Source: Spongiibacteraceae bacterium (GTDB lineage Bacteria; Pseudomonadota; Gammaproteobacteria; Pseudomonadales; Spongiibacteraceae). From it: a DNA stretch of 45,426 nucleotides. Below, piece by piece: positions 3,972-39,850 of this stretch. Both the position numbers and the translations under genes were made by a program. Location of the stretch: the NCBI GenBank assembly GCA_002710725.1, contig PAKT01000011.1, forward strand, positions 1 through 45,426. The letters run 5' to 3'. Below the pieces are notes generated by a model. The model saw only the letters and a program-made list of their open reading frames with translations, did not search any database and was not told the origin of the DNA. Numbering within the stretch: position 1 is the first letter of the stretch; each line of letters begins with the position of its first letter.

Positions 3972-4519
3972 TACGGGAAACACTCCAAGTCAGCAAACGT
4001 GCAAGCAACACGATCTTTTTCCGACAAAATCGTGGCAACCCCTTCACAAAGGGGCCAGTCGATCGCCAGCGTTGTATCACTCCACAACAATGCGCGCTCA
4101 CTTTCCCGGTCGTAATATTCCGTGCATTTGTAGTGCACATCGGCCACTTCCGAGAGCACATAAAAACCATGGGCAAAACCGGGCGGAACCCATAATTGTT
4201 TATGGTTCTGGTCTGACAGTTCAAGTCCATACCAGCGACCAAAGGTCGTGGAGCTTTTGCGAACATCGACCGCCACATCAAAAATGCGGCCTGAAGCACA
4301 GCAGACCAGCTTGCCCTGGGGGCGCTCAAGCTGAAAATGCAGCCCGCGCAAAATGCCCTGCTGTGAGCGACTGTGATTATCCTGGACAAAGTGGCCTTCA
4401 ATACCCGCGGCGCGGTAACGCTCACTCTGCCAAGTCTCGGCAAAAAAACCTCGCTCGTCCCGGTGAACCCTAGGCTCTATCACCAGCAGCCCGTCTAAGG
4501 GCGTCGTCTCAACCTTCAC
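3971..4519 (-). CDS. rfbC: dTDP-4-dehydrorhamnose 3,5-epimerase
   Basis: [53 protein letters not shown]. Confidence 0.96.
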
Positions 4520-20911: not shown

Positions 20912-21075
20912 CGTCATTGCGAGCGACGCGAAGCAAACTCGTGACGCCTCTGCCAACCCCAAAAGATTGCTTCCTGCCGCGCTTCGCGGGGCATGCTAAG
21001 GAGCACAGCGACGCGGCGATCTTTTGGAGTCACTGCCACACTGAAGGAGTTTGCTTCGCTTTGCTCGCAATGACG
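20912..21075. repeat. Intergenic nested inverted-repeat element of the CGTCATTGCGAGCGAAGCGAAGC type
   Basis: Outer arms CGTCATTGCGAGCGACGCGAAGCAAACTC (20912-20940) and GAGTTTGCTTCGCTTTGCTCGCAATGACG (21047-21075) are inverse complements at 27 of 29 positions; inner pair CCAAAAGATTGC / GCGATCTTTTGG. Confidence 0.9.
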
Positions 21076-21831: not shown

Positions 21832-21837
21832 CTGGCT

Positions 21838-22016
21838 CGACCCTGGGGTATGCGTCAGACCGCAAGATCCCTGAGCCGATGCTTTTTACCCAGGCCGTTT
21901 CCAGCCGTTGCTGTTGTGCATGCCCGCTTGACGGGAAGCCTGATGCAACGCGGGGACTGCCACCTTGAACCTCTGGGTTCAAGGGTCACGCGGCCAACGG
22001 TACCACCGGGGTTTTT
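21838..22016 (+). ncRNA. ssrS: 6S RNA
   Basis: Contains CCCTGAGCCGATG and the hairpin CCTTGAACCTCTGGGTTCAAGGGT, recalled from gammaproteobacterial 6S RNA; complementary ends; directly upstream of the 5-formyl-THF cyclo-ligase gene, its usual neighbour. Confidence 0.9.
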
Positions 22017-27191: not shown

Positions 27192-27213
27192 GTGGCTCTG
27201 CCTTGTTTAGTGG

Positions 27214-27299
27214 GGCGTCGGACGTCTGATGTCTGACGTCGGACGCCAAAAAAACCATGCTGCTTTTGCGTCAGACTTACGACGTCCGACGTCTGACTC
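27214..27299. repeat. Heptamer-armed inverted-repeat element, copy A (short core)
   Basis: Left arm GGCGTCG GACGTCT GATGTCT GACGTCG GACGCC; right arm GCGTCA GACTTAC GACGTCC GACGTCT GACTC; core about 20 bp. Confidence 0.92.
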
Positions 27300-27304
27300 A
27301 AGCA

Positions 27305-28613: not shown

Positions 28614-28720
28614 GACGCTGGACGGGAGACGGAAGACGCAAAAGCGAGTGCGGCTGCGCCGCACAATGCTACGTCTGCGAAGCAGCCGGTTGGAGCGTCG
28701 CCCGTCTCCCGTCCAGCATC
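28614..28720. repeat. Heptamer-armed inverted-repeat element, copy B (full core, divergent arms)
   Basis: Left arm GACGCTG GACGGGA GACGGAA GACGC (28614-28639); right arm GCGTC GCCCGTCTCCCGTCCAGCATC (28695-28720); core contains the perfect hairpin GTGCGGC-TGC-GCCGCAC. Confidence 0.9.
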
Positions 28721-28751: not shown

Positions 28752-30790
<2,039 letters not shown>

Positions 30791-30947
30791 GCGGGCAGTG
30801 TAGCGCCGAAGAGGGTGAGGGAGCAACAAGCAAGTCAACATGACTGGCCATTAGCGTCTGATGGCACAGTTGTCCCGCAGAATAATGTGCGCTACCGTTT
30901 CTTGATGGATTGGTCACCAAAGGCCAAAACCAGCCGGAAAACGCCAT

Positions 30948-31484: not shown

Positions 31485-31780
31485 TCTGGACGCCCCGCGC
31501 CCGTGCCGACCTCAAAGCCATTCACGACCACATCCACAAAGACGCGCCGATCAACGCCAAGCGCGTCACACAGAAGATTCTAGACAAGGCCGCCGAATTG
31601 GAGGATTTCCCCGGCACGCACAAGGGCGTGCCGGAAGCCAGAACCGACGATCTGCACGAAGTCAGTGTCAGTGCCTGGCGGATCATTTACCACTCGCGCA
31701 ACAACAATGTTTACATCATCACCGTGGTGCACAAGCGGCAGCTACTGGAGGAAGACCGGTTGCAGCATCGAAACCAATGA
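31478..31780 (+). CDS. ParE/RelE family toxin
   Basis: MVIWTPRARADLKAIHDHIHKDAPINAKRVTQKILDKAAELEDFPGTHKGVPEARTDDLHEVSVSAWRIIYHSRNNNVYIITVVHKRQ; ParE-fold pattern. The last codons lie in repeated sequence. Confidence 0.88.
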   Translation: MVIWTPRARADLKAIHDHIHKDAPINAKRVTQKILDKAAELEDFPGTHKGVPEARTDDLHEVSVSAWRIIYHSRNNNVYIITVVHKRQLLEEDRLQHRNQ

Positions 31781-31872
31781 CACTGACCCCATTGATTGCA
31801 CTGGAGGAAGACCGGTTGCAGCATCGAAACCAATGACACTGACCCCATTGATTGCACTGACCCCATTGATTG
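31745..31872. repeat. 56-bp tandem duplication plus a partial third copy at the parE 3' end
   Basis: CTGGAGGAAGACCGGTTGCAGCATCGAAACCAATGACACTGACCCCATTGATTGCA at 31745-31800 and again at 31801-31856, followed by a further CTGACCCCATTGATTG (31857-31872). Confidence 0.95.
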
Positions 31873-38233: not shown

Positions 38234-38254
38234 GGGTGGAGCCTCGTTAACTCG

Positions 38255-38375
38255 GGTCGGACGTCGGACGTCGGATGTCGGACGCAAGGGCCATACGGCT
38301 TTGCCGCACTCGCAGCATTGCGCCGCGAAGCGGCGCCCGCTTTAGCGTCAGACGTCCGACGTCCGACGTCCGACC
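38255..38375. repeat. Heptamer-armed inverted-repeat element, copy C (full core)
   Basis: Left arm GGTCG GACGTCG GACGTCG GATGTCG GACGC (38255-38285); right arm GCGTCA GACGTCC GACGTCC GACGTCC GACC (38345-38375); arms complementary at 29 of 31 positions; core hairpins at 38320-38336 and 38294-38308. Confidence 0.95.
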
Positions 38376-38404
38376 AGGCAAGCCCCTAAACCGCCCCGCA
38401 ACCA

Positions 38405-39813: not shown

Positions 39814-39850
39814 GGGGACGTCTGACGTCAGACGTCCGACGTCCGACCCC
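39814..39850. repeat. Heptamer element, copy D (core-less / one arm)
   Basis: GACGTCT GACGTCA GACGTCC GACGTCC GACCCC (39817-39850); the right part is nearly the right arm of copy C. Confidence 0.88.

Follow-up and report, generated by a model that had tools for sequence, protein, structure and literature searches.

A dispersed palindromic element with inverted heptad arms and a covarying two-hairpin core in Zhongshania-group genomes

Results

Two armed palindromes in the thiC-thiO and glyA-nrdR spacers

The window (the whole stretch of 45,426 nt that was analysed) carries two related palindromic sequences, copy B in the thiC-thiO spacer, downstream of a TPP riboswitch, and copy C in the glyA-nrdR spacer. 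Two structured RNAs in the window exceed the Rfam gathering score, a 6S RNA (21837-22016, + strand) and the TPP riboswitch upstream of thiC (30694-30794, - strand). At 31744-31872 a 56-bp sequence is perfectly duplicated in tandem, with a third, partial copy of 18 bp after it (CACTGACCCCATTGATTG).

An earlier note on this DNA had spelled out a common core layout for B (28635-28670, + strand) and C (38314-38349, - strand), and we found this layout exactly as described. The equal segment lengths that it reported hold as far as AATGCT; beyond this motif lengths diverge, and the interior measures 55 nt in B and 59 nt in C. The two stem differences between the copies (T-A/C-G and G-C/C-G) are each compensated on the other side, and the second hairpins proposed for both copies are real, with one G-U pair in C. 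What the note did not include is the outer half of the element: each core lies between two long inverted arms composed of GACGNNN heptads, 26 nt long and 88% complementary in B, 31 nt long and 94% complementary in C (Table 1).

Folded whole as RNA, B reaches -67.4 kcal/mol (shuffle mean -40.1; z -8.2) and C -88.7 kcal/mol (shuffle mean -51.5; z -8.5). GC-rich triloop hairpins such as GCGGCGAAGCCGC are recurrent in the intergenic DNA of these genomes, so that B and C could be thought to resemble each other by chance. Against this, the joint core pattern has two matches in the window and none in 100 dinucleotide shuffles, covariance-model E-values are as low as 5e-28, and unpaired positions are conserved across an alignment of 27 copies. 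Chance likeness, to which we assign next to no probability, is already refuted by the finding of copies elsewhere in the genome. B and C are two copies of a dispersed non-coding element of about 105 bp.

Table 1. Position and composition of the elements in the window
Feature	Position	Strand	Context or basis
Copy B, whole element: GGGA-type heptad arms and two-hairpin core	28614..28720	+	thiC-thiO spacer; covariance model 104.8 bits
B left arm: heptads GACGCTG GACGGGA GACGGAA + GACGC	28614..28639	+	inverted-repeat and heptad search
B hairpin 1: AGCG (A bulge) GTGCGGC-TGC-GCCGCAC AA TGCT	28643..28670	+	fold and covariation
B hairpin 2: CTGC-GAA-GCAG	28675..28685	+	fold and covariation
B right arm: GCGTC GCC CGTC TCC CGTC CAG CATC	28695..28720	+	inverted-repeat and heptad search
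Copy C, whole element: TCG-type heptad arms and two-hairpin core	about 38254..38376	-	glyA-nrdR spacer; covariance model 112.1 bits
C left arm: GACGTCG heptads, last unit GACGC	38345..38375	-	inverted-repeat search
C hairpin 1: AGCG (G) GCGCCGC-TTC-GCGGCGC AA TGCT	38314..38341	-	fold and covariation
C hairpin 2: TGCGGC-AAA-GCCGTA	38294..38308	-	fold
C right arm: CGTCCGA heptads	38255..38285	-	inverted-repeat search
Copy A: TCG-type arms, short degenerate interior (AAAAGCAGCATGG...)	27207..27302	-	inverted repeat; covariance model 29 bits
Arm-only remnant: four TCG-type heptads, self-complementary, without interior	about 39817..39847		inverted-repeat, heptad and covariance-model searches

Arms and interiors are modular

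The arms around the two-hairpin core come in two sequence types. Elements are modular, in that two inverted arms of one type can also enclose interiors that are unrelated and range in length from 7 to more than 400 nt. Furthermore, elements can be nested, with TCG-type elements found within GGGA-type elements at three loci (L048, L052 and L054). The NNN triplets of the two arms match within an element at a rate of 0.80, compared with 0.58 when arms are re-paired, a difference that is biased since detection demanded complementary arms.

Large one-sided heptad expansions were seen in element arms of genome G010, namely a CATCTCG run (L107, 2436-3156), about 10 units of GACGGGA (L111) and an AGAACGC expansion (L116). 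Two more short hairpin repeats, the CCGGAGCGCCGGGCGCC type and CCCAAAGCACTCGCTGCGCTCGCGGGGCAGGCCCTCTC, are inserted within heptad arms (L066, L108 and the L008-orthologous site in G005, G010, G017 and G020).

The family is multi-copy and patchily distributed

Using a covariance model trained on six copies, we found the family in this draft genome (G000) and in most, though not all, of its Zhongshania-group relatives, and no copies in 38 genomes from other families of the order. In G000 the model gave 50 matches over both strands; since the near-palindromic element is matched on each of them, the number of elements is about half that. The arm pattern yields about 30 arm-bearing loci in this genome, 18 of them with a B/C-like core; these 18 are included in the 27-copy alignment (A3). 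The distribution is patchy on the tree: copies are many in G000 and absent from its sister G002, and they are present in G010 and absent from its sister G015. Other carriers are G003, G005, G011, G013, G014, G017, G018, G019 and G020, and other element-free genomes are G004, G006-G009, G012 and G016.

Gammaproteobacteria BRH_c0 is probably a further carrier, and weaker arm-bearing relatives with unrelated interiors occur in Alcanivorax sp. 24, a Spirosoma MAG and a Sandtown MAG. In the MAG labelled Spirosoma fluviale, inverted GACGTTA/GACGTCA heptad arms surround unrelated spacers at 4017-4152 and 7412-7621 of L088, which may reflect either a wide occurrence of such arms or misbinning.

Both hairpins covary beyond the relatedness of the copies

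The earlier note had read the compensatory differences between B and C as a suggestion that the fold is under selection. These two copies alone are insufficient, because a T-A to C-G change can go via U-G, a state that four copies show. Across the 27 copies, 95.3% of hairpin cells are paired, and both-sided changes are found at 8 of the 15 pairs (33 cells). None of 500 column shuffles reaches these values, and pairing falls below 58% when partner columns are slid out of register. The unpaired core positions AAA and AATGCT are conserved as well. By parsimony, the hairpins underwent 19 paired-to-paired double changes, 8 single changes of the G-U type and 10 breaks, compared with 23 double changes and 62 breaks in the arms, which are looser than the hairpins and switch type blockwise.

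As the copies are related, we added a null that preserves the tree and, for each branch, how many substitutions of each kind it carries. The summed APC-corrected score of the hairpins (126.4) exceeded all 500 simulations (maximum 39.1), as did the both-sided cells (33, maximum 22) and the pairing (0.953, maximum 0.843). Two pairs were significant family-wise: 83-91 in hairpin 2, and 37-46 in hairpin 1 when the core alone was analysed (p=0.048). The latter is the pair at which B and C differ by G-C/C-G. No non-structural pair was significant. Power for single pairs is limited, none being significant when the APC correction is omitted.

Our results show clear retention of the folded shape despite sequence change. 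The independent, non-compensatory stem substitutions in more copies that the earlier note had set against its own claim did not occur. What stands of that claim is the covariation of both hairpins in 27 copies beyond a tree-preserving null; selection on the fold may be its cause, but template-switch correction of palindromes could also produce both-sided changes, and no clear excess of G-U over A-C marks one strand as transcribed.

Shared spacers are filled by different elements

Most elements are found near the 3′ end of a gene, in spacers of tandem or convergent gene pairs. The thiC-thiO spacer measures 6-7 nt in four genomes (G002, G004, G006 and G012) and 153 nt, with B, in G000, and it is filled by differently built elements in seven others (G003, G005, G010, G013, G014, G017 and G019). 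At glyA-nrdR and at a third orthologous site, arm type, interior and core direction vary between species. Together with the differences between sister species and the nesting, these changing occupants of shared spacers suggest that elements are repeatedly installed in trans at preferred sites. The glyA-nrdR spacer is occupied in nearly all element-bearing genomes, which could instead reflect old, retained sites. Growth of arms around ancestral spacer DNA is possible at glyA-nrdR, but as the only route it is excluded by thiC-thiO, where the empty spacer has 6-7 nt.

One site (L069) was considered as an empty/filled pair and rejected. G020 and G005, whose flanks are 97.5-99.8% identical, each carry a different element there and G011 carries both, which amounts to a spacer rearrangement.

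Discussion

The pairing of the hairpins could be kept by selection on RNA, a folded transcript in operon spacers or at gene 3′ ends stabilising, processing or terminating mRNA, possibly in both directions. The RNA folds of B and C are strong, and a location downstream of genes that are tandem or convergent is shared with REPs, which have been interpreted as transcribed RNA elements (PMC3733652). Moreover, B forms a terminator-like hairpin on the thi-operon strand, GTGCGGC-GCA-GCCGCAC TCGCTTTTGC, and several Zhongshania glyA-nrdR interiors are terminator-like hairpins with T-runs. A core strand acting as RNA would be expected to show more G-U than A-C. We counted 7 G-U and 3 A-C in the hairpins, a weak excess, and 24 and 29 in the arms, where the excess is absent, so that no transcribed strand stands out; core orientation relative to genes is also mixed (about 5 sense, 9 antisense). 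Terminator-like matches in the thi region do not rise above shuffles (5 versus 3.6) and there are none in C. The corresponding sites lack the element in sister species. A known RNA family was rejected: all Rfam matches to the elements lie below the gathering score, nearly all of them to miRNA-precursor models. The lack of a clear G-U/A-C bias and the mixed orientation favour a DNA-level explanation, with which RNA effects remain compatible. Effects of the elements on mRNA are possible, but we hold it rather unlikely that RNA function is what keeps the stems paired.

At the DNA level, the repeats might have no function at all, heptad slippage and template switching between the inverted arms making palindromes and perfecting them again, in which case covariation would reflect repair and not selection. 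Several observations fit such upkeep by mutation: heptad arrays do expand (L111, L107 and L116), both-sided changes include transversion swaps without intermediates, the arms have as many as 62 breaks beside their 23 double changes, the strands are symmetrical for G-U and A-C, and inverted heptad arms also exist in distant bacteria such as Alcanivorax and the Spirosoma MAG. Repair alone, however, provides no explanation for the conservation of unpaired core positions (AAA and AATGCT) or for the dispersal of the core to many loci, and the thiC-thiO spacer of 6-7 nt has gained a whole element. We consider this explanation improbable, yet a serious rival.

On balance, we lean towards B and C being non-autonomous, palindrome-forming interspersed repeats, similar to MITEs, foldback elements or REPs and maintained as folded DNA; their shape is probably kept because they spread or persist in that form. 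Inverted GACGNNN-heptad arms bracket a short interior, here two triloop hairpins, and an enzyme acting in trans would recognise, copy or insert the element as a folded single strand or a cruciform. Recognition would rest on the arms, whose type is the same at the two ends, with the interior being mostly cargo. Insertion would be preferred close downstream of gene ends, and the same spacers would be struck repeatedly across lineages. Pairing may be kept by the failure of copies unable to fold to propagate further, by palindrome-templated repair or by the two together. In this reading, both the enzyme and a single-stranded intermediate are inferred, and so is what causes the covariation.

No transposase-bearing copy was found among the arm-bounded interiors inspected, the longest of which (748 nt, L107) contains no convincing ORF. 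Across orthologous spacers, which are represented by one genome per species and are highly divergent, we found no clean target-site duplication; a GGCTATG that flanks B on either side, at some distance from the arms, may be chance. A link to RAYT/Y1 transposases was rejected, since their presence does not track the elements: Y1_Tnp/RAYT genes are lacking in the carriers G000 (70% complete), G014, G017 and G020 and present in the element-free G002, G004, G012 and G015. A link to reverse transcriptases through telomerase-like synthesis of heptads was rejected on the same grounds.

REPs and REPINs are short intergenic palindromes present in many copies, whose inverted doublets form long hairpins and in which compensatory changes are common (PMC3116915); REPs adjoin the 3′ ends of genes in tandem or convergent arrangement (PMC3733652). 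The B/C family is likewise a set of multi-copy intergenic palindromes at gene 3′ ends with compensatory changes. Unlike GTAG-tagged REPs and REPINs, its unit is longer, its arms consist of variable heptads and RAYT (PF01797) does not follow the elements. Indeed, no conserved GTAG tetranucleotide lies beside the B or C hairpins, and the core ends in GACGC...GCGTC. CGTC-tagged REPs, which have an unpaired CGTC tag, a stem of 8-9 bp opening with A-T pairs, a loop of 4-5 nt and a CCA tail, share with the B/C family an intergenic, palindromic nature without a dedicated transposase, a location near the 3′ ends of tandem or convergent genes and a prominent GACG/CGTC (PMC3733652). In B and C, in contrast, CGTC is paired within the arms, loops have 3 nt and stems have 4 and 11 bp. 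Elsewhere in the window (20912-21075), an inverted pair, CGTCATTGCGAGCGACGCGAAGCAAACTC / GAGTTTGCTTCGCTTTGCTCGCAATGACG, separated by a spacer of ~106 nt resembles a head-to-head dimer of a CGTC-tagged REP. Among the features of a MITE, the B/C family shows short length, terminal inverted repeats and no ORF, but arm detection required complementarity and these are not independent proof. BrickBuilt of Porphyromonas gingivalis is an intergenic, MITE-like element built of tandem repeats, with 23-nt direct repeats and small inverted ends (PMC4596501). The B/C family has in common with it being intergenic, MITE-like and built of tandem repeats, and differs from it by its inverted heptad arms and two-hairpin core.

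The nearest situation described appears to be that of the small dispersed repeats of Nostoc, reportedly described by Elhai and colleagues in 2008 as hairpins of 21-27 nt with compensatory changes, tied to tandem heptamers and showing nested insertions. Covarying hairpins, associated heptads and nesting are all found in the B/C family. The Nostoc repeats are said to be often embedded in tandem heptamer arrays, whereas in B and C the heptads themselves are the inverted arms of an element of ~105 bp. The CCGGAGCGCCGGGCGCC-type and CCCAAAGCACTCGCTGCGCTCGCGGGGCAGGCCCTCTC insertions within heptad arms also recall small dispersed repeats within heptamer arrays. In eukaryotic foldback transposons, short direct repeats make up the long inverted repeats that flank a variable loop, an arrangement that the B/C arms and interior resemble by analogy only. 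GACGGGAGACGGGAGAC had no match in the papers searched. The family acts like a MITE, foldback element or REP, yet fails the testable defining features of GTAG- and CGTC-tagged REPs, and it resembles families known in other bacteria. It is conceivable, if doubtful, that it represents a class of modular bacterial foldback elements that has not been described before, in which inverted arrays following the GACGNNN rule would be the recognised unit, interiors would be interchangeable, and a trans-acting enzyme present in some species only would repeatedly install elements at the same gene-end hot spots; the GACG-heptad inverted arms of Alcanivorax, the Spirosoma MAG and other lineages would then belong to the same class.

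If our reading is true, these are clearly covarying, heptad-associated palindromic repeats outside cyanobacteria. The pairs of sister species with and without elements (G000/G002 and G010/G015) would make the mobilising factor of transposase-less palindromic repeats a problem for phyletic profiling, and the shared hot spots would offer a way to ask if such repeats tune operons, as at thiC-thiO and glyA-nrdR, or are merely tolerated.
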